DNA of 64,000 nucleotides, from NCBI GenBank assembly GCA_038501195.1, contig JBBPUQ010000010.1, positions 3,532,001 to 3,596,000 of the forward strand, in the 5' to 3' direction. The notes under the pieces were generated by a model. The model saw nothing but the letters and a program-made list of their open reading frames with translations. It had not been told where the DNA came from and did no database searches. Source of the DNA: Nemania diffusa (taxonomy: Eukaryota > Ascomycota > Sordariomycetes > Xylariales > Xylariaceae). The translations under genes were made by a program, and so were the position numbers. This document shows, piece by piece, positions 407 to 51,474 of the stretch (its first letter is position 1; each line of letters begins with the position of its first letter).

Positions 407-1889
407 TCAATCCGAACCCTCATAGCGCTTCGCATTTTCCTTTGGTAGAAAGCTCCGCGGCGTAGTCGTAGTAAATAGGTCCATTGCCTCCTTGGAGGGC
501 TGCGGGTTGAGCTTCTCTTCACTCTGACTGCGGCCCCTGAATCCCCGCCCCATGCCCCAGGAGCTGTTCCGCTTGCTGCCGTCGGTGTTGCTGTCGCTCG
601 ATACCGAAATCGTCGTGGTAGCGTATATCTTGCTGCCGTGGTCAGCCTGCTTCAGGCTTTTCCCGTCGCTGCTGCAGTTCACGTTTGCTTCCTCGTCATC
701 CTTCTGAACGAAGGTCGCGAGAGAAATGCCGCCGAACTGGTTTGCGGCTGCCCTTCGCCCTTTGAACTTGTCCGTACTGCCGATGGTGCGGGGGAAGGCG
801 TCGTCGGAAAGCGGCATACTCGCTCGCGGCGTCCACATGCCGAGTTGCTGGGCCATGCTTCGAAATAAGGGGCGTAGTGTCGCGAGTGAAGCGGCCGTGA
901 TGGCTAGACCCTGCTCGCTCGTTGACCAAATGGCAATATCAAGCGTTGCCCCTGAATCCTGTGTTAGGTCTGTCTACGGCTTAACTGCAGCAAGTCGGGA
1001 CTTACATAAAAAGTCAGGGTTCGTAAAATTATGGATATAAGCAAGTCGCACAACAACAGCAATACTTGCTCTGCGACCGTGTTAACAAATGCCCGTTAGT
1101 AAAAGGGGGAGTCTTGGGAACGTACACGCAACCAATGCTAAGAATGGGTATCAACGCAATTTTAGTTCTCCGATCAATTTGAAGAGTATAGATCAGGAAC
1201 ATGGGTAATATGGCAAAGGTAAAATCGCAGATGACGCTAAAGGCGCTGTAGAGATAGGTGAGAGCGGCAATAATGCTCGGGTCTATGCACTTTCCTCCGT
1301 TGATCTCCTTGTCCCAGAAGAAGGTGATAGGAGTGCATTGAAAGACGGTGACGAAGAAGAAGACAATCCCGGATGAGACGGTGAATAGCATGATAACGTA
1401 GATGATATAGTGGTGAATCTTCGAAACCGTGAGTCGTAGAAGGAAAACGCCAATTGAGATTTTCGAGGTAATCATAGTCAGGCAGTACCAAACGTAACAA
1501 AGCCACCAATACTGTAAGTATCACAGTCAGCAATTGTCGCACGTCGTGTTACTTGTCGTCCGACTAACCTTCATCGCCTCTTCTCTGTCGCTTTGCTTGA
1601 GATCCGCATTATGTCGTCCGGTTCCATAATGAATACCTGTGATAGCAGAGGCGACGAAAAGGGTGAAAGAAATCTGCGATAAATCATAAAGATGTTAGAT
1701 GATTGAGCTGGAAGGCGTTTTTATCGGGTTACTGACAGCCGCAAAACTCATGAACCAGTCATCGAGACCCCATGCTTTCACAATAACCAGCCGAGTGTAT
1801 ATTCTTAATGTGAAGGCAACGACGGACGCGGCCAGCAGAGTAACGCACACAGAGAAGAGCTCTGGCCCACGATTCGGAACGTCGGTCAT
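407..1889 (-). CDS. Pth11-like rhodopsin-domain integral membrane protein (five exons)
   Basis: Reads as a fungal seven-helix membrane protein of the Pth11/rhodopsin-domain (DUF-type GPCR-like) family. Exons on the minus strand: 1889-1737, 1673-1569, 1511-1126, 1070-1006 and 951-407, with introns of 63, 57, 55 and 54 nt. The joined frame is 1254 nt (417 aa). Family hallmarks are visible: GLDDWFM near the end of exon 1, GIHYGTGRH in exon 2, YWWLCYVWYCL then SKISIGVFLLRL in exon 3, and the junction FLWATLDIAIWS followed by GLAITAASLATLRPLFR in exon 5. The last roughly 130 residues are a Ser/Thr-rich cytoplasmic tail. Pth11 in Magnaporthe is a surface-sensing receptor; the ligand here is unknown. 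The first intron donor (GTCAGT) is weaker than the others. The start is the first Met before helix 1. No neighbour suggests a pathway. Confidence 0.9.
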
Positions 1890-4800
1890 CTTGGCGGCTC
1901 ATCCATAAACTGAATGAGTTCTATAAACGAAGCTTACATCAATGTCAAGGAAGCAGAAAAAAGCATGGCGCCTAATAGCATCCAGAAAGCAGACCTGGCA
2001 AATGGAGGCTTGAGGATTCCCAGCACACCGGGGATATAACATGGTCTTGTAAGGCAAATTCCACGCCATCCAAACCTGGGTGTCGTTACCAGGAACCGGG
2101 CAATTGTGCCTTTTCGGGAAATTCGCCGTAACCTTCTGAACCGTTCGGGTGCGTCCGCGCTCTCGTTTAGTGGAGAGAACTACTGTTATGCTTATTAGCT
2201 AGATACTACTGTCTTCCGCAGCGCCCGAATTATAAGTAGAGAGCTATATTCTGTAGTATTCAGAGCTATCCCCGCCCGCCTGAGAGTTGGTGCGACGACT
2301 AATAGAGGTAGTGCGAGCACTAAATACGAAGGTCGGTAGTCACAAATGGCAGCCTAGCGCCACCGGCGAGTCAGTTAACAGAAGGTGGAAGACGGGGCTC
2401 CTGTCAAAACCGGCGCTGTAGCGTGATTTGAAATGTTGTGTAGCATTAATACCCGACTCCTTGGTTGTCAAAGCGGCGGCGGGCGGTGATAGTACATAAC
2501 GACCTAAGCATTGATCGGCGATCTCCTCTACTAGTGGCTTTTCCTTGCACGAGCCGAGGCCTTTCCGGTATCTCTGCGTGCCCTTGCAGGTCCGACACGG
2601 TGGATGGCCCTCGAGGGGGCACGGTAGTGCAATCCTGCCGCCGGCAATTGCATCACAACGGCCAGGTTCACCGGTTCGACGATCCCAGGACAGGGCTCCC
2701 TATTTCGTTCCATTATCGTGCTATACCTCGCGACTAGCAATTACGGAAATACAGACCTTCAATTTCTATTACCAAATCCGGAGCCTTAAGTATTGAGCTA
2801 GGCTGTTTAGTCGAGCTAGACTAAGTGAGGCACCGACGCTAGCCAAGGTCTGGCTATTCGCCCGGTGGATGTGAAACGCACCCGGCGCACATCCCGGGAG
2901 GCACCTATAGGCTCGGGAAGATATAGCATACCCGTTTTTAGTTAGGCCCAACGGTTTAGAAACCTTCAAGTCCAAAATCACGAACCTAGTGCTATGCATT
3001 AACTAGGAAGTTCTAATAGTAAGGACCAACTATTAATGTTTGGGTCGTTCAGGCATCTATACTAAGGGAAGAGTATATCCTCTCTAAGATATCTCGAAAT
3101 TACTATGTGTCAAAAGAGCCTCATATCTTTCGACGCCTTGTGGAAAAATATATCGCTGGTGTAGATCGGGTCGAGAGGCAGTACCTCGATTATAGTAAAT
3201 GCACCCTACGGTATATGCTAGATGTAGCTTCCACCTAACCATTTCTTTAGTGGTACCAACTGTTTTTGATCCCGCGGAGATGCATCATGAAGCATGCTAT
3301 GAAACAGGTAGCACTACTTGAACGTATCACTCAGCGCCATCAGAGCCGTTGCTAAGACACTAAATGAGGCAATCTTCTTGTGAACAAATACAGCATTATG
3401 CAGTATACGCGGGAGCTTACGTTGTACAGTATGATAAGTTAGTACTCCATGTGTTTCGTACATTATGACACTGTAGAGGACTATACGCTCCGGCTTCTTT
3501 ACTTTCGAACCCCAGTTTTCGGCGAATAAATCTAAGCCAGCTGCGAGACTAATGGCCAGATCCCATTATAATTCATCCCTGGCCATTGGGCCTGATGCTA
3601 AATTAGACCCGTAGGCCAAAGATATGGTGTATAGACCAGAACCAGAATGAGATAGCTAGTTGATGAGCTTAAATTAATCATCATTCGAAGGAAACGGTGG
3701 ACTGCGGGGCCCCCAGAGCATCCAAGCCAACTGTTTGGTCCCGTGTTACCAAGATTTCCAAACTAAACAAGCCAAAGCCATTGAAGATGGCGAAATGAGA
3801 TATGCTAACCGGCAAGAGAAACCTAAAAGCGAGCCGCAGCCTCTAGTTCAAGGTCAAAATATTTCTAAGCTTGAAAGAACTAAGAATTAGGGGTTAGGCA
3901 GAATGATTGCTAACTTAGATACAACTCCAAAAACTCGTTCTTATCTAGGAAGATAGGATAATTAGTAAGGTGCAAGGGGAATTCAACGACATATTGACAA
4001 AGATCAGCGCCTCAACTCCACACTATAGTGCTTCTCCTAAGCAAAGGCGCATCAATAGGGGAAATTTCAGTACACTAGATTTAGAGGGGTTGACAGAAAA
4101 CGTCTTGTTCTGGAGCTATAAAGACCAATTTTGTCGCATAAAACGCTAGGAGAGTAGCGCGCGGCGAAGACACAGCAGCTCACTTACAACAGGGATGGTC
4201 TCCCCCATTGAGTGACAAGACGTTGTATCTACTTAGGTGATATTATGGTCGTCGAAGAAACCGACTTGAACGAGATAGGTAATGATAGTTTGCGGGTAGC
4301 GAACTCGCTGTCTGAGTCTATCTAAGAACGGATTGTCCTGGGCTAACGAAAGGAAGAGCCTACAACATCCGCAGCAGTAGGACGAGAAATAAACGACGTT
4401 TGCTTGACTAATGGGACTATGATTTGTAATTTATATCCGGAATTTAACCGTTGTCCTTTGTGACTAACGCTGTAGGCGCTACGCGGCGTTAAGAAGCTGT
4501 AGTGAGGTTTCTAGAGTTTTTGCTTCTCTTTGCAATGAAACTAGATGTAAAAATAACGATACATTAAGGATTCATACTTTATTCAATATATATCTATATA
4601 TTTACCTATATAAAATTCTCCTTACCCGTATTTCTCAATTCCCTTTCGTTAAAAATGAAACATATAAACATCACCTTAGTTTCCACTCTCGTAATATTAC
4701 AGCTAGCAAAACATGCTGTCCTAGGAAGCACAAATAATGCCGTAATATGTATTACCGATTGCTAAAATTTCCCTTCTAGAAGTCTAATATGTTAATTATT

Positions 4801-5158
4801 GAGTCTATTCATTCAATGTAACCCCTCTATGCCCTCGCTTCAACATTAATCGAATTCAACATCTGGTGACATGTAGAATATATGTTATCAAGCAGACGAA
4901 ACACTCGGTTCCCTAATATTTTAACTAAATACCTCAACTGGCTCTTTCCCTTCTTCTCTTTCCAGAAAGGCCGGCAAATAATTGACTAGATACCTCTACC
5001 AGAGGTCGCAATTTATTCTGTGAATAGAATGTATTTATTTCCTTGCTTTTCAGGATTTGGGAACATTTGAAGTGGGCAAAGTGGCCTGGCCACCCCTTTT
5101 AGGTAGCTTGGCCGCCTAAAAGCTAGATTTATATGAAAGAACAACTATTAGTAAAGAA

Positions 5159-5292
5159 CATCTGTGTATTGTGTGTCTCTAAAGATACAGAGGGTTCTCC
5201 ACAACTTGCCCGAATTTATTGCCATCCTTATACACCCACACAAGCCACACTTCTTATGGCTTGTGTGACTTAACAGCCTGCTTTACTTTTAC
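5159..5292. repeat. diverged repeat copy with ACACAAGCCA hairpin
   Basis: Contains GTGTATTGTGTGT near its start, the inverted repeat CACACAAGCCA/TGGCTTGTGTG at about 5231-5263, and ends in ACTTAACAGCCTGC. The same order of landmarks recurs at about 5890-6014. It is probably the remnant of a short mobile element. Confidence 0.55.
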
Positions 5293-6016: not shown

Positions 6017-7255
6017 ATTATGCAGTATACGCGTAAGCGAGTTCAAATGCTCGAGGTCCCTGCGTCTAGAATATTCTACTTTGCATAGAACTGTTGTCGT
6101 CAATCGGTGATTTAGTTCTGTTTCCTAACTAACTATATATAGAAAAGAATTCAAGAAAATTAGACCCAATCAATAGACTCACCAGCGCAACTTGATCGCA
6201 CACACTGTAACACTGCTTCGCGGCTTAAGCTTGCGGCAGTCTGTTCCTATATCATTCAGTTGAAAGTGAAAGTTGGCTTCCCCGGGACTTTCGGTGAGCA
6301 CGCTCTAGAGCGGTAAGACTACCCAAGCTGATGTGATCCACCAAATAACTAATTTTGGGGTAATCATCAGATTGATGGACAAATGAGGAGCTCGTTAAGG
6401 TTGAGGGGAGTACAACCACAAGTGGCACGGAAAGATGACACGCGGCCCAGCTGTCGATTCCATCAATGGGAAACAATTGAGCTCAAACGTCTGACAGTAC
6501 TGTAACGAAGTGACGTAGCACTAGAGCCGCAGTGAGACGGAACAAAACAACTAATAATTCAACAGAGATATTGACACAAGAATAATCCGAATTCCCTTCA
6601 CAACGCTAAGCCTATCCTAGCATAAAATCGGAATATTTGGATAACAGAGAAGGTGAGGGAATCAGGATAGTTTATTTTGATATTCATCACCTCACAACAT
6701 CTCAAGACCCCAATGATGATTTATGGGAATATCAGAGCGACGAACAAATAAAGAAAAGCGTTATGATTTCGACGCGATCGACGTGGACTTCGGGTTTTTA
6801 GTAGATTTCCGGTGTACGGTGAGACTATTCATCGGAAGATTGAATTTTCCGTTCATCTAGATAAATTTGCCCAACGGACATCTAGCAGAACTCATGCAGA
6901 AAACTAGGGTTAGAAATCTCTACAGGAAATTACGCTGAAATAACTCGTATTAGCCATTGACGTCAAAGACTACGACGCTAATGACTCATCAAGGTCCCGT
7001 ACGTATAGACTTCTGGCATTGGGAGTCATAAATTCACTGAGCTGAACTTGGGAAGGGGATGACAGGGGGCGGGGTTCTAGGCGCCCGCGTGGGATCCTGT
7101 AAGCAATGGCCCCCTATGAGAATATAGAATTTAAATATGTCGGGTGAGAAGATTCGTACTAATATTCTGTCACTCAATCCATCAACACTCTCAACAGGAT
7201 TCTGAATATTGTCTATCTTGCTATCTCTATTGAACAATCTCTCAATCCAGTCGCT

Positions 7256-8560
7256 ATGGCCTCCTTAGACGTGCTCATCGTTGGCGGTGGTATTGCGGGC
7301 CCAGCCGCCGCTTACTGGCTATCCCGCATTCCTGGTGTCAGAATCACACTTATCGAACGTTCATCAGGAATGCGAGCTATAGGCCAGCAGATAGACCTTC
7401 GCGTGGCGGGCGTGGATATCATGAAGAAAATGGGCATAGAGCCTGCCGTCCGAGCGGTACGATGTCAGGAGCCTGGCACGCAGTTAGTTGACACCGATGG
7501 ACGAACGCGAGCCTACTTCCCAGCCGCCGAGCATGGCAGCGGAAGACAGAGCATGACGTCCGAGTTCGAAATCATGAGGGGCGATTTGGTCAGAATCCTA
7601 TACGGTCTCACCGAAAACAAGTCGAATGTACGGCACGTGTACGGCATAACCGTTCAGGACTTCACCCAGGACGACGAGAGCGACCCCAATGGCAAAGTCC
7701 ACGTGACTTTCTCAGACGGCCGCCAGCAGGATTACGATCTCGTGCTTGCTGCCGATGGAACGGGCTCGAAAACACGAAAGATCATGCTCGGCCCCGACGC
7801 TCCTGATCCACGACATAGCACCGGCGGCTACATTGCTTATTTTAGCATGCTCTCGCAGCCCGGGGACTCGGATAGGTCAACGGGCTGTCAGTTGCCCGGA
7901 TCTCGTATGGCCCGGACCATTATGACGCGGAAGGACTGTCCTGAGCTCACGCGCTGCTACATGATATTGAGCGAGCGGGATGATGCCGTCGACGCAGCAC
8001 TCAAGTCTGGAGATCTCGCGGCCCTGAAGAAAGGATTGGCCGATATCTACGAAGGTGGCGGGTGGGAAACCAAGCGATTCATGGAGGCATTAGTCAACGC
8101 ACCGGAAGCAGACGATTTATACTGCACGCCGTACGAGGAGGTCCGGCTTCCTGTGGGGTCTTGGTCAAAAGGCCGGGTCGTTCTCATCGGCGACGCGGCA
8201 CACTCCGCTACGGCAAACGGGTACGGGACTTCGTGGGGCCTGATAGGACCGTATATCCTGGCCGGCGAGCTTGCGACGCTATACGAGAAAGACAAGTCAT
8301 TGCCCACCGCATCTATCGTTCAGGCCGCGAAGAACTACGAGGAAATATGGCGACCGATAGCTCTTACAGGCCACGGAGGATCTGGGTGGGTTGCGTCTCA
8401 CTTCCCTCCTCGATCGGCAATCGGTATTGAGATTATGAATTGGGCTGCCGCACTCGCGGCATATCTCAGACTTGACCAGCGCATTGGGTTCGACGGAGCA
8501 CTCGGAAAATGGAAACTTCCAGTTTACCCTCCTCTGGATAAAGATGAGGAATCAGTCTAA
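7256..8560 (+). CDS. FAD-dependent monooxygenase (aromatic hydroxylase fold)
   Basis: A single-exon 434-residue flavoprotein monooxygenase of the FAD_binding_3 (TetX/para-hydroxybenzoate hydroxylase-like) group. The N-terminal Rossmann motif GGGIAG lies at residues 10-15, the DG motif (LAADGTGSKTR) at about 162-172, and the FAD ribityl-binding GD motif (GRVVLIGDAAHS) at about 306-317. All three family fingerprints are in order and the length is normal. Such enzymes use NAD(P)H and O2 to hydroxylate or epoxidise small molecules, often in secondary metabolism, or inactivate them. No biosynthetic partner is adjacent, so the substrate is not predicted. There is no signal peptide or membrane segment, so it is presumably cytosolic. 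The ATG is followed directly by a hydrophobic beta strand, as expected for this fold. GC is clearly higher than in the flanking DNA. Confidence 0.93.
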   Translation: MASLDVLIVGGGIAGPAAAYWLSRIPGVRITLIERSSGMRAIGQQIDLRVAGVDIMKKMGIEPAVRAVRCQEPGTQLVDTDGRTRAYFPAAEHGSGRQSMTSEFEIMRGDLVRILYGLTENKSNVRHVYGITVQDFTQDDESDPNGKVHVTFSDGRQQDYDLVLAADGTGSKTRKIMLGPDAPDPRHSTGGYIAYFSMLSQPGDSDRSTGCQLPGSRMARTIMTRKDCPELTRCYMILSERDDAVDAALKSGDLAALKKGLADIYEGGGWETKRFMEALVNAPEADDLYCTPYEEVRLPVGSWSKGRVVLIGDAAHSATANGYGTSWGLIGPYILAGELATLYEKDKSLPTASIVQAAKNYEEIWRPIALTGHGGSGWVASHFPPRSAIGIEIMNWAAALAAYLRLDQRIGFDGALGKWKLPVYPPLDKDEESV

Positions 8561-20531: not shown

Positions 20532-22097
20532 TCAGAGAACCATCTCTACCTCGTTACTTGTCAGTGAAGGCTGAACATAATACCGTCCCGAGATCAAACT
20601 ATTCGGGTATGATTGTTAGAAATTGTCTCTGAAGCAGGTGGGAGACAGCTAAACATACCTCCAGTGGATGTTTCCAGTGCAAGCCAATTTGCACGCCTTG
20701 ATTTGAAGACGTATTTCCTCTTGGATTTCTTTAGTCGCAGACGAATAGTGGTTCATTGCGTCCCTCTCCGCAGCCTCAAGTCTATCGATAGAACTTGCTG
20801 CCATATGCGTTGCTTCATCAACCGCTGCTTGGAGAGATCCACATTTCAGAAGCAGAAGAGGGACGATACTATCTACTTGTAGTTGTGCCTTGTTAAGATG
20901 AGCTGAGAGTATAAGTAACGAGATAAGGTCATATGAACTCACAATTTCCTTCTTGAGTGACAATATGTCATTCATACTAAAGAAATGTCAGTTCACATCT
21001 AGGCTTGTACTTGATGATGGACTGTGCATACATGCATATGATAACATTGGCTTCGTGCCAAATCGCCTGTATTGAGTCGCCTAGCAGGATATCTTGTGAC
21101 AAAGCAGATCCGGTTGCAAATCTGTACAGACATTAGTTTTAATGACCGAATGGGGAACACGCGGTTCGGTGTGACATACTCAGTGAAGGCTAGGTTGAGT
21201 CTCACTGCGCCTGAGCCCATCCGTCGTTGCATGTATTCCTCCACAGTAGGTATGTGACCAAGTGCTTGAGTATTTTGTTCTTCTTCGCACATCTTGAAGA
21301 AGAATTTCACCTCATCTAGAAACAGATTGATTTGGTCTAGTGACGAAAGTTAACAGTGAACACATTTATATCCCATGAAGTCAAAAAGACATGCCGTCAT
21401 TATACGACCTGCACATGGCCTTCCCCACTGGATCGAAGCCAGTGATGAGTCGTGGGTTATTAGCCAATTTAGGGCTCTGAGGCTTAAGGCTCGTTAGGCT
21501 CTCGTGAAGATACTCCAGAGTTACCTCTCGAAAGACGCTGGCCGAGTTCAAGTCGTTTATTAAAGGCGAAAACTCGATCGAATCTAGCTCTATTCTATAG
21601 TTAGTACTTAGATTCAAAGTTTTGTCTAGGAATTATAACGCACCATCATCCCAGGCAAAAAGCTATTGAATTGTTATCAGCAAACATCATCAGATTCCAG
21701 CAAGTTGTACCCATACCCAGACTGTATAGGTCGCAAGTACGCACAAAGCTTCAAATGAAGCATATGGCCACCAGGAAGCAGTAAACAATCCAAGCTTCGC
21801 TGCCTTCATCTTACACAGACGGCCTTCATCATCAGGCTTGTTGAAAACCCTACTCATTTCTGTTAAACTCCTCCTGTATTGTAGGCGATTAGCTTACCAT
21901 TCAAGAGTCTTCCCCACGTGCTCCTCTACCTCGCCAACTCGTGGATGGACTCCCTGTGGCCAGTGGCTTAATAAGCTTTTTAGGTCGGAGATTCTCACTC
22001 TAGAACCATGGATCTGGTGCAACAGAACTTTTCTTCCATCGTTAGACGGCTCTTGTGACGGCAACGTCACCGAAGGCTGATACAAAATGGATGTCAT
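20532..22097 (-). CDS. class I terpene synthase, with a possible nonsense lesion
   Basis: A fungal sesquiterpene-cyclase-type enzyme that would ionise a prenyl diphosphate in the cytosol. Exons (minus): 22097-21717, 21662-21644, 21589-21395, 21336-21180, 21121-21032, 20976-20943, 20888-20659 and 20598-20532; introns are 54-60 nt. The total of 391 codons is in frame. Metal-binding motifs are intact: DDELD at about residues 132-136 (LFAWDDELDS) and NDILSLKKE at about 283-291. GFDPVGKAMCRSYND, FKMCEEEQ, PTVEEYMQRR and a terminal SGRYY follow the family order. Two oddities: codon 68 is TAA (21896-21894), removable only as a 24-nt intron (GTAAGC, CTAAT, TACAG signals) or explained as a premature stop; and the intron after exon 3 needs a GC-AG donor (GCATGT). 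Either the gene has unusual splicing or it is a young pseudogene. An upstream in-frame ATG at 22142 is possible. The product is unknown. Confidence 0.85.
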
Positions 22098-42915: not shown

Positions 42916-44274
42916 CTACATTACTTCGTGTTGTCTCTGGTGGTCCCCGTGCCTGTTCATATTCGACATCTCCCATTCCGATCCGTGTAGATTCACTTGA
43001 CTAGATGTCGGAGCTGGTTCGCTAATCCGACTCCACGGATGCCACGTCCCATCACCCCCCTGACTTGTCCTAGAAGGAACACTACTTCCTTTTGAGACCT
43101 TTCCGTTGTCTTCTCCCGTTACCGTAGACTTGGATCTACTCGAAAGAAAGCGTGACCGTAGGGAACGGAAGAGGCTGCCCGGGCCGTATTTAGAGCGCAG
43201 AAGTGGCCCAAAAGTCAACATCGAATTGGCTATTATGAAGACCGGTAGTTCGATCAGAGCCGTGAGTATGTTGTATATGAACGGAACTGAGACAATTAGT
43301 ATCCTGTTCCCAATATCTTGTGCCATTTGTCTCGAACCTTCAAAGAAACTGTTCCCGGTTTCGGGTTTCTTGGAATATTCCACCGCAAAATGCAGTCGAA
43401 GAAAGGTTACTACGACGGTGCTAGAGCCAGAATAAGCGTCCGGAATCTCGGTCCAAGTCTGGTCTGAAACTTACATGCTACCAAGACTCAGAATGACCGA
43501 CAACAAAAGTTTCCGGTTGGTATTCATTTGAAGGTTGCGGATTGTCAGGATCGGGAGAGCCAAAGCCACGACATCCAATGCCGCATTTCCAGCACAGAAG
43601 CTGATGAGCAGTGTCGAAACATTGGCGGTGTATGGAGTCAGGGGGTTCCACTGCTCAGGCACAGGGTATTTGTCGAAAATGTTCACCTGCAATGGATTAG
43701 CCAGTGAAAATGAATCCATGAGCATCTTGCACTGACCAGGATGATGCTTAAAGCTAAGAGGGATGTGATCGCAATAAGGATGTTGGCAGCTAGTAAAAAG
43801 GGCTTCGATATAAATATGCGGCTGTAGTACAGAAGCAAAGAGATTTTAACGAGTGCCAGCCCTGCTATCTGGAAGTTTTCTAAAGCGAGGTTGGCCTGTA
43901 TCATCACCATGAGCTAACGAACCAGCAACTACCAAGACATGTGCCAAAGGGTGGAGGGTGCTCACTTTCAAGGCAAAAACCGTTGCCTCAAAGCTGGGCT
44001 CGTAGGACGGTTCTCCCACTCCTGTAGTACACGCAACATAATCCGTCAATATGGCGATTCCAGTAGAGAAGAACTGATCAGAAGCTTAGCAAGTTCGGTC
44101 CACGGATTGGATTGGGAGTAGCCGTACCAAAGCCACAAGAATGCAATATGTGTCAGGCCCCAGAGGTATCTTTTGAGAGAGCCGGACATAGACTCGCAGG
44201 CCGACAGCAACTATGGCTAGAACGCCTAGTATTACTGTCACCGAGACGGCGACCGTTGCAGCTTGATTCAGCAT
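42916..44274 (-). CDS. Pth11-like rhodopsin-domain integral membrane protein (second copy)
   Basis: Exons (minus) 44274-44128, 44073-43966, 43895-43737, 43686-43475 and 43420-42916 join to 1131 nt (376 aa); introns are 54, 70, 50 and 54 nt. The helices read AVSVTVILGVLAIVAVGLRVYVRL (TM1), a second after exon 2, ALVKISLLLYYSRIF (TM3 block of the family), ILIAITSLLALSIIL, ALDVVALALPILTI, and a last one after STVVVTFLRLHF. The tail of over 80 residues is Ser/Arg-rich and cytoplasmic. It is more divergent from family consensus than the first copy at 407-1889 (the usual WDD and YWW blocks are weak), so sub-family placement is uncertain. The ligand is unknown. It is the nearest intact gene on the left of the candidate peptide cluster, but nothing shows it belongs to it. 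Confidence 0.85.
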
Positions 44275-46060
44275 GGCCGTCTGTTGCTCTTTGAGGGCCT
44301 TATACTAAACACCTTGGAAACATGACGTTTAGCAAAATCGGGAATTTGAGGTTCGCTGAAATACTTGGCAGAATAAGACGGGAGTCAAGCGATTGTTCCA
44401 TTGTGGCCATTCACCTCTTCAAATGCATCAATGCGGGTTTCGTCGAGACAGGGGCAGTTTCCGAATCCGAAAGACGGGGGCGGATAAGATGTGTATAAGG
44501 AACGACGGGGATCCTTCTTGGGAGAGCCCATGCTGACAGCCACAACAGCGTGGCGTCTGGTCCCCCATTTCGGATCCTACGTCCGCAAAGAAACCGAGAA
44601 GTTGGCCGCAAGAGATCCATCTGGGTTCGTACTGGTCGATTAAGGAGGGCGGGTGCGATTAGAATAGTAAGTGCCGTACATTCGGTATCCTTGGCATGTA
44701 AGAATAGTAATTAAGGTAAGTACCGTACATTGAATATCGTTGGCATGACTCGCGTTGCCACCCAACTTGGTCTGTATGGATAACAAGGAGGGGGGAGACC
44801 GTAGGAGCGTAGCTGCATACCGACGTTGGATTGTCGGCGTCCGGGGAATAGATATTGGGCCAGGCGATTGGGAGGAAGACATGACGAGTGGTGCGTTAAT
44901 TCTTTCGGTCTCAATTTCGCCAGGCCGTCGATGCATGTGCACGTAGCCTAGCGGGCTTTATTCGGTGCCGCGTAACCACTACCTACCCTTGGGGTGTTAT
45001 TGGCGAGTTGGGTCACATTTGTAAGCCCTTGGGCGTCGTTCTGCTTTGTTTCGCTTGCAGTCGGTGTGGCATCCGTGTGACACGAGAACAAGGCTCGCCG
45101 ACGCCCAGTACTCGTTCCCCAACCTATGAGAATGAAGCTCAAGGAGCCTCTATAAAGTGAGTGTACCCTGCCGCCGGCAAGTCTTAGGTAGTCAAAATGA
45201 AAAGGCGGAGGCTCCCCAGGACTACACCAAGACACGCACTGCAACGCTGACACGCAGCCTCCAAGTTCCGTGCCCACGGCACCGGCTGCCGCTTGGATCT
45301 TGATCAAAAGCTTGAATTCATTCCCTGTGCCCCTGAAGTTGCCGTACACCGTGTGCTCGGAACGTGGTCACAAACAGGCACCCTGAAATAGCACCTAGTG
45401 ACTAGGTAAATAGCTCACATCGTAGGCTATTAATTAGCTTACGCAAGAGATCATTGTTTGAAAACTAGTTTTTACATCGTTCAAGACAGTCGTTCAGATC
45501 CGTAGCATTGGGACTTCAAGCATACGAGTAACGATATAAACTATTACGGAAGCGTTCTTTAACGTGATTCTCAGTCGTCAGCTTCTCACTTATCCCCTTG
45601 GCTGCGGATTCAGCATCAGTACGTAGCTACAGCGTTATATCAGGTAAAGCAAATCGAGCGAGCTATCTGATTGGATGCCAAAAATACGCTTACTTGGTAT
45701 AACGTTGTAGCTACGTACTGATGCTGAATCCGCAGCCAAGGGGATAGCATGCATTTTCAAGTAATCTTCAGGCAACATTGTAAGGCTTAGTAACACAGAG
45801 TGAGAGGAGCAGTAGATTTGAACTATAGGTCTGGTTGGAGAGACTGCAAAGCCTGAGGAACATCAACTCGGGGGATTCCTCTAGACCCTATGTGATTCTG
45901 TATTTAAACTACTCTCACGCGCGGCGGAACCTACGCCAAGAGATGAGGTACTCTAGGGTCCCAACCAACAAACACGCAAACCAAATGAGTGAACCTGCGA
46001 CCCAAACGTGCGATCTAAGCCCTGCTGACACTATGATGCAGTGACTTCCAAGGGTCTCCC
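44275..46060. other. intergenic region with a MITE
   Basis: Open frames on the minus strand at 44640-45349 show no family features and use non-ATG starts. The MITE at 45591-45746 lies here. A repeated GTAAGTGCCGTACATT-like phrase occurs at about 44668 and 44714. Confidence 0.45.
45591..45746. mobile_element. 156-bp MITE with near-perfect 49-bp inverted repeats
   Basis: The arm 45591-45639 (starting TATCCCCTTGGCTGCGGATT) and the arm 45698-45746 are reverse complements over 49 bp with one difference (ACAGCG versus ACAACG). The loop between is 58 bp. The outermost TA on each side would fit a TA target duplication of the Tc1/mariner-pogo type. The near identity of the arms implies recent insertion or a constrained hairpin. 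It lies about 300 bp from the 3' end of the precursor-peptide gene. Confidence 0.85.
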
Positions 46061-46363
46061 TCAAGCTTCGGTCTCGTAGGTTCCGAAGCGGGTGTTGACA
46101 ACGGCGTCGGGGTCAGCGTTGCGAGCCTCGTTCTCGTAGGTTCCAAAACGAGTGTTGACAACGGCATCAGGTTCAGCATTGCGAGCCTCGTTTTCGTAAG
46201 CTCCGAAGCGAGTGTTGACAACAGCGTCAGGTTCAGCGCTGCGAGCCTCGTTCTCGTAGGTTCCGAAGCGAGTGTTAACGACGGCGTCAGGGTCAGCAAT
46301 GGGTGCCGGGAGAGCTGCGACGGCCCCCAGAAGGACGCTGATGAAGACAGGTGTGAAATGCAT
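46061..46363 (-). CDS. secreted repeat-containing RiPP precursor peptide (candidate)
   Basis: 100 aa, single exon. Residues 1-17 (MHFTPVFISVLLGAVAA) are a clear signal peptide. From residue 24 there are four tandem units of exactly 20 residues (60 nt): 24-43, 44-63, 64-83 and a shortened 84-100 ending at the stop. The shared core is PDAVVNTRFG(T/A)YE followed by NEAR(S/N)A. Codons differ between copies at many third positions while the core protein is unchanged apart from one Thr/Ala. There is no Lys and no dibasic pair, so classic Kex2 cutting is absent; the single Arg in EAR and the acidic-Ala spacers are the likely processing sites. The divergent UstYa-type gene and nearby methyltransferase suggest the Phe/Tyr-containing core is cyclised and modified. 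An in-frame ATG at 46414 would mask the signal peptide, so I reject it. A secreted unmodified peptide is the main alternative. Confidence 0.85.
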   Translation of the reverse strand: MHFTPVFISVLLGAVAALPAPIADPDAVVNTRFGTYENEARSAEPDAVVNTRFGAYENEARNAEPDAVVNTRFGTYENEARNADPDAVVNTRFGTYETEA

Positions 46364-47205
46364 GGTAGGCAGAGCGGCTGTGGAGTTGGTCTTTGATTCT
46401 GGAATAAGTCTCAATGAAGGTTGAGTCGGCTGAGGACTTGGGCTTCTGGGGCAGTAAAGAATATATCGTTTTGTATTTATTTGCAGAAGGCAAGCCGCTG
46501 TATCACTTGATACCCTCGATCTTGAACGTGTGACCCGTTATATATGCCTATCTATGAACTGCTAGACTGAAGGACTCCTCTCTTGGCCACCTCTCTCTTC
46601 CCTTCGGGATTTGTTATCTCGCTGAGACGTAATAACTGTCATGCACTACTGCGGCGCAGATACAGAATAAATCTCTTCGGCGAGCGATGCTAGGAAAGCC
46701 TTCCGTTATTGCGTGAGCCTTGCAGATTGTTACTCTATCTGGAATGTGACATGTCAGGTGAGAGCGGCCGGGCAGCCAATGTTGGCATTGCTAACACATC
46801 GAGTCACCTTTGCCGACTTTATTACTTTGATTCGATATGCATCCGAGGGGCATATATGCCGTCATACGACTCGTACCACCTCTGATTCGCATTGATAACC
46901 AAAAGCCAACTTCCGATGTAAGCCTACTCTCGTTGTTAGATGCACAGGACTTTAATGCGAGTGCAAGGTTGACCATTGTATTTGAATGTGACTTCCAGCG
47001 AGAGCGACGGCCACCGGCCACTCTGGTATTGCAGTGGCGCCGTGAAAAGAAGCCACTCAGGCGCTGAACAAACATTGTCTCGTTGAACCCTTCTGCGAAA
47101 AAGTACCGAGGACCAACCTGGCGCTCCCCTATTGCTCATCATCCCCCAGCAGAGTCCAGGCTCACCACGTTCCCGCCTTTCCGTCAGCGTTCCGAGCAAC
47201 TCATA
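46364..47205. promoter_or_regulatory. divergent promoter between precursor and UstYa-type gene
   Basis: 842 bp separate the two start codons, which point away from each other, so the pair can be co-regulated. A TATATAA box for the precursor is present on the minus strand at 46544-46538, about 175 bp upstream of its ATG. No regulator gene lies in the cluster. Confidence 0.5.
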
Positions 47206-48251
47206 ATGTACGTAGAAGACGAAGACAAACTCGACAAGGAGAACCTCCTTGAAAGGCATGACAGTATAGACGGCCATAACATCAAAAGCCTTCAGTCAGC
47301 ATGGCCATGGAGACGCCAAATCTATCTATGGATCCCGCAGCTAGTCTTCTTCCTTATTTCATTGTCCCTCTTATTAGCGGCTCGTTCAAGCTACTATAAC
47401 CCCCGTAGAGACGGCTGCGAGGATCATATGCCTATGTACTCTCCCGCCCTCGAGAGCATCAAGAACACTGGCCACTACCATCGTTTCGACGGGAGCTTTG
47501 CGACGCCGAACGCTTTCAAAGGCACGCCGAATCCCTCAATCGACGAACACTGGGATAGCGTCGTATATCAGGATGGTAACATAATGCCTCCCCTCGACCC
47601 TTTGCAACCTTTGCTGACAGCGGTAGGAGGTGTGATCAATATCTCTGAAGAGAGTCTTCACGCCATCAATGCATCGGCCAAGTACTCCGTCAAGCTGGCC
47701 CCAGAGATCGGTGGTGGTTACATGGCGTCTGTCGAAGTCCTGCACCAGCTGCACTGCTTGAACATGTTGCGCCAGGCGACTTATGAGGATTACTATAAGG
47801 ATAAGGCGGAGCCGTGGAAGGATAGCCCGCAGGTACTACGGTACCATCTTGGTAGGTGTTCGGCCAAGGAGGAGGTTCTCAAAACCCGTGATAGCTGATT
47901 GATGATACAGATCATTGCATTGACAATCTACGTCAAAAAGTAAGAGCTCGCTCCCGAAATGATAGCCACAGATGCTGATGATATGCAGTTAATGTGTGAC
48001 GCTGATGCTGGTATTCTGACCTATGTTTGGGTGAAAGGCCATCCTGCACCCTTTCCAGATTTCAGCGTGTGAGTACCGTGGCTAATAAGAGACAAAATGA
48101 TTTGTGCTTACTTCTTTATTCCTCCAGGCAGCACAAATGTCGTGACTTTTATGCCCTGAAAGACTGGGTGACCGAACACCAAGTCTTTACCACAGAGGAG
48201 CATGGAATAGAACGACTCCCTGAATCTCATGAACTTGAAAGCCCTCCCTAG
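47206..48251 (+). CDS. UstYa-type oxidase/cyclase (DUF3328)
   Basis: Exons 47206-47851, 47911-47939, 47989-48068 and 48128-48251 (introns 59, 49 and 59 nt) join to 292 aa, normal for the family. A cytosolic N-terminus of about 40 residues is followed by one transmembrane helix (LWIPQLVFFLISLSLLLAA) and a lumenal domain. Family marks are PNPSIDEHWD, then two HxxHC motifs, HQLHC at 180-184 and HLDHC at 214-218 (the second spans the first splice junction), NLRQKLMCDADAG, and HKCRDFYALKDW. UstYa homologues catalyse oxidative macrocyclisation of dikaritin-type ribosomal peptides (ustiloxin, asperipin); some family members act in other pathways. It is the only such gene here and the only oxidase in the cluster. 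The frame is open upstream to a TTG; the ATG at 47206 precedes the family-like start. Confidence 0.93.
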
Positions 48252-48469
48252 AAATTGAATGTTCTTGTCATGTTTATATAGGAACTTGGGTGGAGTGGCA
48301 TAGGGGTAGTGGTAACTCTTTAATACTATCGTTAAACGAAGACTTTTCTTGGAAGCACAATACCCAATTTGATAAAGTAGTGACATTCATCACAAGAAAG
48401 CTGCTCCCCAACGCCTCTTCTAATTGAATTTTCAGTTCCTCTGATATTTAAGGTTCGTATGATATTATA

Positions 48470-49548
48470 CTACTTGGGGAGAGCATCATCCAACTTTCGT
48501 GCTATTACCTGCGGGAACATTCCAGCCATCTTGACTTCACCGGACTGCCGAACTTCATCTATGTAATCCATCAGCGCCCGTATTTCCTCCAAGCGACTCT
48601 GATTATCAGGCTGGATTTTCTTTGTCGCATGGCCATCTTGTGATTTCGCACGAACCAGAGAGGCGTTGAGGAGAAGTTTTACCGTTTCCAGCACTATATC
48701 TGAAAAACGGTCGTTCAGTGCGGATGTCTCAGACCCTTCTGATCTGCTTAGTCCTCCTGGCAAAAGGTTAAAATGAATAATCCTGACTAGATCATTACCC
48801 GCATGGGCAACGTTGGGCCTTGAATCATGGGACAGAAGTTCTCGAAGCATGACATGCGGAAGGCTGCAAGATTATCAGTGTAAAATTTCACAACGTCCTC
48901 TTCCCTGTGGGTCGGCCATACTAAGGTGCAAGATCACGCTCCTCCCGCTCGGAGTTGATAGCAGCCAGAGCTGATGATATCCTCGCCGTAGCTGGATAAG
49001 CCTTGAAAAGCCTCGTCTCAGTCTCAAGCCACTGGAGGTACCCTCCCGGTCCTGCACACAGTTAGAGAAGAAAAACTGCCCTAGGCAAAGTACAGCTTAC
49101 TCAATAACCTGATGGCGTTTTTTATCATAAGGGAAAAGCCTTCAACAGACAAGGCATACGCAAGCCCGCGGATATTCACGAGATCGAAAGTGCCATTGTA
49201 ACTGTCGTCAAAAGGCTTGGTGCAATCTTGCTTGATAAGCTGGACGCCAGGAGCGGGGGTCTCGTTGAACGCTTCGGCGTTCAGGTCGAAGCCAACGAGA
49301 CGAGGACCTGTGTGATTCCCGGGAAAGAGTGTGTTTTTGACGTCGTCGAGCCAGACGCCGGTGCCACAGCCTAGATCGGCAATGGCCTTTGTGATCTCTA
49401 CGGCCGGGATTGAGGGGTGCACCAGATGGCCTTCCAAGATTGCGTGCTTGATAGCATCGTGTTGGTAGTTGAGGCGATTGTCTTCCTGGGCGTCGTCACG
49501 GCGGTATCCAAGAAGGTAATTATCGTTTCGATCCTGTTTTGAAACCAT
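48470..49548 (-). CDS. SAM-dependent methyltransferase (LaeA-like fold)
   Basis: Exons (minus) 49548-49101, 49051-48922 and 48863-48470 (introns 49 and 58 nt) join to 323 aa. SAM-binding motif I is ADLGCGTGVW at residues 57-66, the acidic end of strand 2 is VGFDLN, and the post-motif III block RPGGYLQWLE falls at 150-159 across the first splice junction. The N-terminal NYLLGYRRDDAQEDNRLNYQHD is typical of fungal methyltransferases of the UMTA/LaeA-like group found in secondary-metabolite clusters. It ends about 220 bp from the convergent UstYa-type gene. N- or O-methylation of the cyclised peptide is the obvious guess, as in phomopsin-type clusters, but this is inference. There is no signal peptide, so it is cytosolic. 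The start matches the usual length before the SAM motif. Confidence 0.92.
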
Positions 49549-51474
49549 CTTAGGGGAGGAATTGCTAGGGCAAAGCTACCTGTAAGTAAAAAGAAAGGGG
49601 AGAAATAGAGATCTATTTGTAATGCCTGCTCGGACGAAACGAAGAATGTGTATTTCCGGGAATGCAAGCCGGTCAATGGCCACCCTTTAAACTGTGGACA
49701 TCGCTTATTATTCAGCACTCAGTCTGCCTCTCTTTATTTAACGCCACCGAATCCCATGTTATAATAAGCTGCATCCCGCGACGGGCCTGCAGGCGGGGTC
49801 ATAGCTAAGTTGGCGTAGCAAAGCAGCCTGCGCTTGTTTGGCAATAAAACCGACAGCAGCAAACCCAAAGCTTAACACGAATCGACCATGCCCTTAGATC
49901 ATATAACACGGTAATAGCCTACTGAGCTTTCGTCTTGTCTGACTTGATAAAAATTATAAAAAAATCGAATAAACCGGAAAAAGCTAAAGCGGACGGATTA
50001 TTGTATACAGCGCTACCCACAGGTAAAGTCAGTCAAATAATAGCCTCTTGAATTGGTTTCCTGAATTGATGGCAAAAAACGCTTCTTTGACTGACTTGAC
50101 AGATTCTATTATTTGACTTGATTGAGTTAATTGACTAAGTAATTCAAGCAATATATATGAAGTGTACGTAGGCAGGGTACCTAGTAGGTAGAGGTGGTAG
50201 AATGTAGGCTAGGTGGATGTAAGTGGCTAAGTCAGTGGCTAGGTAAGTGGCTTCGTAAGTGGCTGGGTAAGTGGCTAAATAAGTGGGGTTAAGAACAGGG
50301 TACTAGGCCACCTATCGCTCTTTGCCTGCAGGAGGTCGCCGCGTTCGGGTTGCACACAGAAAGAATATCTCGTGGACCGGTTCAGAAGTGATAAAATTGA
50401 GATGATGCATACCCTAGGAGTCTGACATGATGTATGCGCTTCGAGAAAGACTTAAGACTATATCGCGCGGCGATGACGTGGAAAGGAGAAACCAAAAAGG
50501 GGAAATAACGGGAGGGTCCGTTTTTGCAAACCTGTCAATTTGGTTACTATATAATATTTATTTTTAAATATTTATGATAATTATTTCATAAAATAAACTA
50601 ATAAATCATATAATAAATAATATTATTATACTTTAATTGATAAATAAATATTATAAATTTGTTAAAATACTGGTCTACTGAGAGAATAGGTAAAGCCAAA
50701 ATCTTTTTCATCAAAATTAACTTTATAACATTTTCTGATGTAAAATAAAACAGTAATATATAATTTAAAAATTTATTATGATTGTTGCTGTTGTTGTTGC
50801 ACAGTAGTTTATAGCTTCCCAATTTGTTTACTTGCATGGTTATTGATTACTATTATTCAACTTCAGGCGGTAGGACTAAGTAGCAGTGCTTCAAGCCCCC
50901 TGAAATACCTTACATGGGCAAGCTGTCCTCCTATGCAATGCGCTTTAAGCTGTATCCATTTCGCTGATGACTCTTCATTCACCAGACCGCCGCTAAACGG
51001 TTAGACATGCTTTTAACCGCTATTGCTCTCCCTTTTCCCTACCTGCAAGGCTGCGAATCAAGACAAAGACCCTCTGTAGCCCGTTCTTGTCTAGTATAAT
51101 CTCCCTGAAACGCCCTGATTGCGCCTTGATCCCTCTCATATTATGTACTCATTAATCATGTGCAGGCTTTTGTGGTATCTCGCGTATTTATTCCCGAAAA
51201 CGATTGTGAAGTGTTGTGGCCCTTGTCCCTCCCTTTCCGGTTTATCGATTCCCTTTTGGGTTCTTTAGGGGACATCGTTCGTGGGTATTACGTCGAAACC
51301 GAAAATGTTCACCCCTTGCTTCCAACCGGTGATTCTGTGTACCGTGTGTGACAGAAAGAATTTCAGCACTAAGCCACAACAGTAGCACACAAGGAGAATG
51401 TCGACCAGTCAGGCACTTGGAGGTCTACAGTTACTTGCATGTTGGGATCGTAAAGGGCGGCAAGCTGAGCTTGC
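49549..51474. other. intergenic region, right border of the candidate cluster
   Basis: No gene is seen. It holds imperfect inverted arms CAGTCAAATAATAG (about 50030-50043) and CTATTATTTGACTTG (50106-50120), a short AAGTGGCT tandem repeat, and an A+T-rich patch at about 50540-50790. Confidence 0.5.
50218..50289. repeat. short tandem repeat, 12-bp AAGTGGCTNNGT units
   Basis: Five to six imperfect copies of AAGTGGCT(A/T/G)(G/C)GT. The neighbouring sequence also contains TAGGTAG strings. It is a simple repeat with no coding meaning. Confidence 0.7.

Follow-up and report, generated by a model that had tools for sequence, protein, structure and literature searches.

In a 64,000-nucleotide window of the Nemania diffusa genome (assembly GCA_038501195.1, contig JBBPUQ010000010.1, positions 3,532,001 to 3,596,000; coordinates below count from the first letter of the window), three adjacent genes at 46061-49548 probably make up a minimal dikaritin-like cluster for a ribosomally synthesized and post-translationally modified peptide (RiPP). 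They encode a predicted secreted repeat precursor, a UstYa-family (DUF3328) protein and an S-adenosylmethionine (SAM)-dependent methyltransferase. In the reading that we favor, 13-residue peptides (VVNTRFGTYENEA) would be released by monobasic cleavage and dipeptidyl trimming, and would then be oxidized and methylated. The gene anatomy, the constraint on the repeat unit, the intact motifs, the absence of dibasic sites and the recurring neighbors are all observed. The locus looks like a dikaritin cluster by its neighbors and, judged by its cutting signals, like a pheromone gene. The combination of an STE13-type signature with UstYa is what is new here, because that signature is reported by Le Marquer et al. 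(PMC6339444) to be absent from the precursors of cyclic toxins. The features are as follows.

46061-46363 (-): precursor gene, ATG to TGA, 100 aa, one exon
46064-46303 (-): tandem 60-nt repeat array coding the precursor units, 60-nt spacing, 85% identity
46364-47205 (no strand): divergent intergenic region between precursor and UstYa gene, 842 nt between start codons
47206-48251 (+): UstYa-family (DUF3328) gene, exons 47206-47575, 47627-47851, 47911-47939, 47989-48068 and 48128-48251, 275 aa
49548-48470 (-): SAM-dependent methyltransferase gene, exons 49548-49101, 49051-48922 and 48863-48470, 323 aa, SAM motif ADLGCGTG

The precursor and its two neighbors

The precursor is an intact open reading frame (ORF), translated as MHFTPVFISVLLGAVAALPAPIADPDAVVNTRFGTYENEARSAEPDAVVNTRFGAYENEARNAEPDAVVNTRFGTYENEARNADPDAVVNTRFGTYETEA. 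Its hydrophobic N terminus, MHFTPVFISVLLGAVAA, is predicted to be a signal peptide from hydropathy only, without a dedicated predictor. A leader, LP-AP-IA-DP-DA, comes next, and then four 20-aa units with the consensus PDAVVNTRFG(T/A)YENEAR(S/N)A(E/D), the final copy truncated; read another way, VVNTRFG(T/A)YE(N/T)EA units are parted by an Arg and (S/N)A-(E/D)P-DA spacers. In the DNA, the repeat takes the form of three 120-nt registers at exact 60-nt spacing. Over the 17 codons common to the four units, with six pairs summed, there are 33 synonymous and 6 non-synonymous differences, giving a proportion of 0.458 for synonymous (pS) and 0.027 for non-synonymous (pN) changes. Because synonymous differences so far exceed replacements, the units are under strong protein-level constraint while the DNA drifts. 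The precursor frame had a repeat score of 46.6; the same DNA is open in two further frames, each of which scored 17.6. No second copy turned up when the genome (55.6 Mb in 16 contigs) was searched. The initial annotation, which had proposed a secreted precursor with four tandem 20-residue units, thus stands on this point.

One candidate family for the precursor was set aside. DUF7468 (PF24272) matched with an E value of 4.9e-4, yet at 20.7 bits, under the curated cut-off of 27 bits, and we treat the match as chance. The best stretch was 11 residues of the fourfold repeat; one homologue, P0001, gave 0.057 and another, P0002, no match. Searching the genome with the DUF7468 profile returned no match anywhere, controls included.

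These two homologues, P0001 and P0002, are the only ones found among about 5.8 billion proteins. The one from N. diffusa is identical to the precursor at 76 of 80 aligned residues; P0002 sits on a 4.4-kb contig. Across the nine units of the three homologous proteins, 9 of 16 columns are invariant (P, A, V, N, R, F, Y, E, A). They include the Phe and the Tyr, whereas the pair of intervening positions is variable (G/A and T/A/I), as are five further columns. This pattern is compatible with an F-x-x-Y crosslink, though three homologues are few.

As initially annotated, the precursor and the UstYa gene lie head to head. They are divergent, and the 842 nt between their start codons are a candidate shared promoter. 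The UstYa protein has an N-terminal hydrophobic stretch and carries HQLHC (residue 163) and HLDHC (residue 197), that is, a complete HxxHC(x)nHxxHC, the motif described as holding the binuclear copper in CctR (PMC12435403). The Pfam UstYa domain (PF11807) was found with an E value of 4.5e-55, scored on a 292-aa splice model that retains a 51-nt intron. Our five-exon model gives 275 aa. The orthologue P0003 of Nemania serpens has the same length and is identical to it at 264 of 275 aligned positions. In the predicted structure of the UstYa orthologue, the motifs fall on two helices (moderate confidence). An intact UstYa gene beside a precursor fits the broad description of dikaritin clusters, of which a DUF3328/UstYa gene is the defining feature (PMC12048977). 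This enzyme may cyclize the peptide.

The methyltransferase belongs to class I (Methyltransf_25, E 1.9e-7) and is identical to its N. diffusa orthologue, P0058, at 311 of 323 residues. It does follow in order, as had been noted, but the three genes do not all point the same way; the UstYa and methyltransferase genes are convergent, with stop codons 218 nt apart. The closest relatives of all three genes are among Nemania, in N. diffusa for the precursor and the methyltransferase and in N. serpens for UstYa.

The absence of a tyrosinase, a P450 or a flavin oxidase next to the cluster was a further point of the initial annotation. Tyrosinase (PF00264) has no match listed on the contig (C10), with 33 of 33 genome-wide candidates scored, so that the UstQ/PhomQ-type tyrosinase of the ustiloxin/phomopsin subgroup is missing here. 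P450 genes were not listed inside the window among the 92 of 346 candidates that were scored. The window does contain an FAD (flavin adenine dinucleotide)-monooxygenase-type gene (FAD_binding_3) at 7163-8557, about 38 kb from the cluster.

Processing signals and a predicted route to the peptide

Neither the precursor nor its two homologues (none of three) contain KR, RR, KK or RK. Dibasic KEX2 sites between cores are a feature of the narrow description of dikaritins (PMC9769878); because we looked for such sites and they were absent, we do not file the precursor as a narrow-sense member. It also falls outside the definition of KEX2-processed repeat proteins (KEPs), at least three repeats of at least 8 aa between KR, KK, RK or RR (PMC7329392). 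Instead, all units before the last one terminate in ENEAR, with a single Arg, and the last unit ends in ETEA or ESKA, one residue short of the Arg position, in all three homologues. If the Arg is cut after and then removed, a terminal unit needs no Arg, which is what all three proteins show. Products apparently cleaved after a single Arg have been described for repeat precursors expressed in Pichia (PMC9769878).

The second signal consists of in-phase dipeptides ending in Ala or Pro (XA/XP). They follow each Arg (NA-EP-DA, SA-EP-DA and NA-DP-DA) and also the signal peptide (LP-AP-IA-DP-DA). By shuffling, the chance of such phasing is 0.024 for the leader and 0.05 per spacer, in segments picked by eye; since copies of a repeat are not independent, the phasing is suggestive, not proof. 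Asp or Glu occupies the X position in 8 of the precursor's 14 dipeptides, as is often described for Ste13 sites (PMC9769878), and the genome has two matches of the dipeptidyl peptidase IV (DPP-IV) type.

We infer each of the processing and chemical steps set out here, and the product with them. The signal peptide would direct the precursor into the endoplasmic reticulum and Golgi, where a kexin- or yapsin-like protease may cut each ...YENEAR behind its lone Arg. That Arg would then be taken off by a carboxypeptidase; the last unit already ends ...ETEA. We imagine that a Ste13/DPP-IV-type enzyme strips the XA/XP dipeptides (NA-EP-DA and the like, and LP-AP-IA-DP-DA in the leader), leaving VVNTRFG(T/A)YENEA and VVNTRFGTYETEA as predicted peptides. 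The membrane-anchored, lumen-facing UstYa protein, a predicted binuclear copper enzyme, may oxidize these peptides, most likely through a bond between the two invariant residues of F-x-x-Y, Phe and Tyr, or else through another oxidation of Tyr. Finally, the methyltransferase may methylate the peptide. PhomM methylates an N-terminal amino group (PMC6514808), and by analogy the site here would be the Val exposed by trimming.

The core initially proposed, NTRFG(T/A)YE, has accordingly been revised. Because of the single Arg with its XA/XP pattern and the C-terminal stop before Arg, the predicted peptide is now the longer one, approximately VVNTRFG(T/A)YENEA.

UstYa neighborhoods in this and other genomes

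We looked for linkage of the genes in other genomes with protein-search listings, taking contigs of exactly equal size as the same contig; one contig is listed per protein cluster, and a count of shared contigs is therefore a lower bound. In N. diffusa, the precursor (F4825DRAFT_429008) and the methyltransferase (F4825DRAFT_429006) are both on a 130,175-base contig, although the numbering may not track position. At least 10 of 55 UstYa matches share a contig of exact size with a methyltransferase match (49 of 50 methyltransferase matches were usable). Gene numbers are consecutive in five of these pairs (Hypoxylon texense, Cudoniella acicularis, Heterodermia and, twice, Pyrenula) and two apart in Calogaya. 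Two pairs are on short contigs, one of 3.4 kb and one of 22 kb, the latter in Polyplosphaeria with gene numbers that are not close; pairs in Pyrenochaeta and Aspergillus tubingensis have just a long contig in common, which does not by itself show adjacency. The pairs span five classes of Ascomycota: Sordariomycetes (Hypoxylon), Leotiomycetes (Cudoniella), Lecanoromycetes (Calogaya), Eurotiomycetes (Pyrenula) and Dothideomycetes (Polyplosphaeria). Because the pair recurs across such distant fungi, it is probably an old or mobile module.

Precursor homologues lying mostly without UstYa neighbors, the pattern that the initial annotation had named as speaking against a RiPP cluster, were not found. 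The N. diffusa precursor and methyltransferase are apparently linked; UstYa itself was not directly seen on that contig, and P0002 could not be placed. With a real and constrained precursor, an intact UstYa, and relatives of the methyltransferase that neighbor relatives of UstYa in other Ascomycota, the reading of the locus as a RiPP cluster is well supported.

Within the genome under study, 52 UstYa matches fall into 29 loci when clustered at 10 kb. Flanks were read at 27 of them (the exceptions are C10:3014 kb and C3:4349 kb), over 1.5 to about 5 kb each and thus not completely. A clear tandem-repeat ORF lies within about 2 kb of the UstYa match at seven of the 27, the focal locus included; two others have weak two-copy repeats only (C8:772 kb and C2:1314 kb), and 18 have no repeats in the stretch read. 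A small, non-random control for the base rate, made up of the remainder of the window and eight loci of 3 kb selected by a DNA pattern, yielded no repeat ORFs. KR or KK separates the units in five of the seven UstYa-linked arrays, but not in the focal precursor or in an ORF at about C9:2508.5 kb. Of the seven, the focal precursor was the only one seen with the XA/XP run.

The C9 locus (L045, C9:2502300-2512200) is the closest parallel to the focal one in the lack of dibasic sites. Six 18-aa units (TQIYTIDTK..., TQIYTIDTKAAEVD...) lie at about C9:2508.5-2508.9 kb, some 1 kb from a UstYa match, with neither a dibasic site inside the units nor an XA/XP run. A signal-peptide-like stretch lies upstream and may be spliced to the repeats. 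The locus differs from the focal one in having, besides a second UstYa match, a tyrosinase match nearby (C9:2506228-2506974), and in carrying Lys rather than Arg. Because this ORF, too, is without dibasic sites inside its repeats, UstYa-linked repeats of this kind are not unique to the focal locus.

Other arrays are of interest in their own right. At L058 (C6), a KR-type tandem-repeat ORF beside UstYa (4777-5178) has units ...EADSDYIFIDLPDKR that recall the published EDYxI motif of ustiloxin and phomopsin. Four more loci, L042, L043, L048 and L052, have UstYa-flanking tandem-repeat ORFs with units of 38 aa (PIALIESLIGKN), 31 aa (QYQLVVSVHDIEEP), 15 aa (AIWLWKK) and about 21 aa (ISFKYPFKAAEGEAEKR), respectively. 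The array on C5, one of the seven, scores just 17.5, close to the 17.6 of the out-of-frame readings of the focal repeat, but it contains many IWLWKK copies. L060 (C3:4015900-4022700) has two UstYa matches and tyrosinase matches at C3:4022895-4023625, with no tandem-repeat ORF in the stretch read.

Competing explanations and the surrounding DNA

A comparison with known systems frames the alternatives. The asperipin-2a cluster of Aspergillus flavus (aprA, aprY, aprT and aprR; PMC6514808) likewise combines a repeat precursor with one UstYa-family enzyme and no tyrosinase, and both cores can be read as holding a pair of aromatic residues spaced three apart (YTGY in FYYTGY and FGTY here). The Nemania locus differs in lacking dibasic sites, in having a methyltransferase instead, and in a longer predicted unit; no adjacent reductase or transporter was found. 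The ustiloxin and phomopsin clusters share with it a signal peptide, Tyr-bearing tandem units, UstYa-family enzymes and a methyltransferase (UstM, PhomM). Their cores are flanked by KR, however, and a tyrosinase accompanies several UstYa genes (PMC6514808), where we find a different core without a dibasic site and one UstYa. Ascomycete alpha-pheromones and STE13-type KEPs (PMC6339444, PMC9769878) have in-phase XA/XP dipeptides after a basic residue, which is suggestively the case here and extends to the position after the signal peptide; in place of KR, RR or KK, however, the focal precursor has a single Arg, and it differs further in having no Cys and a UstYa neighbor.

The locus might then be an ordinary dikaritin-type cluster with a single UstYa, as for asperipin-2a. 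Host proteases would process the precursor at sites that are not dibasic, the XA/XP run would be incidental to a spacer rich in Ala, Pro and Asp, and the mature core would be the short NTRFG(T/A)YE. The single UstYa and lack of tyrosinase recall that four-gene cluster (PMC6514808), the shuffling values are hardly extreme, and the C9 ORF, near UstYa and tyrosinase matches, likewise has no dibasic site inside its repeats, and no XA/XP run. Against this, the three homologous proteins all end at the residue just ahead of the Arg position, which suggests that the Arg is a processing residue and that the mature end is at that Ala, and the constraint covers the whole unit, beyond the core. On balance, we consider this explanation unlikely.

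Less likely again is a linear secreted signaling peptide, a hormone like the alpha-pheromone, with the adjoining UstYa-methyltransferase pair serving another substrate. The STE13 signature is of the alpha-pheromone type; according to Le Marquer et al. (PMC6339444), it marks hormone candidates and is lacking in precursors of cyclic toxins and epichloecyclins. We found no separate pheromone: the pheromone motif WC(x)3GQxCW has no exact match in the genome, and at two mismatches the 89 matches, compared to 61 for a reversed control, are uninformative. The peptide, however, has no Cys, unlike that motif. The near-adjacent N. diffusa gene numbers (429008 and 429006), the divergent 842-nt region and the invariant Tyr favor a link to the neighbors, and nearly all mating-factor or pheromone KEP genes, with three exceptions, are without DUF3328 neighbors (PMC7329392).

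That the gene encodes a repeat-rich cell-wall or surface protein, releasing no peptide and unrelated to its neighbors, seems highly improbable: surface proteins do carry short tandem repeats, and the precursor has no dibasic site, but 100 aa is small for a wall protein, and the UstYa adjacency, the anatomy of the unit ends and the invariant Phe and Tyr speak otherwise.

Several points also weigh against the RiPP cluster with monobasic release that we favor. The standard processing route does not apply, given that the precursor has no dibasic Kex2 site, and Ala-Arg is a poor kexin site. Each XA/XP test is weak alone. Only two homologues of the precursor were found, and the N. diffusa one is too similar to count for much as independent evidence. 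In the linkage data, 45 of 55 UstYa matches, including the two closest (N. serpens P0003 and Hypoxylon trugodes P0004), showed no contig in common with a methyltransferase match. The distant species with a conserved UstYa-methyltransferase pair yielded no precursor, so that the two enzymes may have a different peptide substrate in those fungi. UstYa proteins, finally, are not exclusive to RiPPs; members of the family also catalyze hydroxylation and halogenation and serve in pathways outside RiPP biosynthesis (PMC12048977).

One can envision, more tentatively, that the locus represents a third kind of fungal secreted peptide, in which release at a single Arg and Ste13 trimming are joined to UstYa copper chemistry and methylation. 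The product would be a 13-mer, crosslinked into an F-x-x-Y ring and N-methylated; the enzyme pair extends across five classes of Ascomycota, and both the peptide and its kin would be missed by dibasic surveys. Such a cluster would unite pheromone-type trimming and UstYa oxidation, which are kept apart in the literature; among the top matches listed in the open-licence literature, none described a UstYa together with an STE13-type or monobasic precursor. Requiring dibasic Kex2 sites is how one published survey identified such fungal precursors (PMC7329392), and surveys of that design would miss the focal precursor because none of the required double-basic sites is present. A testable route to missing precursors is to accept one basic residue as the site, given tandem repeats beside UstYa, and the recurring UstYa-methyltransferase pair provides a sequence handle on the pathway in lichen fungi, Leotiomycetes and Dothideomycetes.

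A few other features of the window deserve mention. About 300 bp downstream of the precursor stop is a large imperfect hairpin (45591-45746; 57-nt arms, 95% complementary, 42-nt loop); considered as a dispersed element, it occupies a single place in the genome and so gives no sign of dispersal. Two genes with a fungal rhodopsin domain (PF20684) lie at 43474-43845 (-) and 1032-1520 (-), the former being the nearest Pfam-matched gene downstream of the precursor among the scanned ORFs. Beyond the methyltransferase, a 12-nt tandem repeat (50219-50286) and a strongly AT-rich stretch (50540-50790) may mark the cluster boundary. Part of a terpene synthase at 20652-21349 (-), with a Terpene_syn_C_2 match at 21002-21349 (E 1.4e-8), possibly belongs to a separate biosynthetic locus about 25 kb away.

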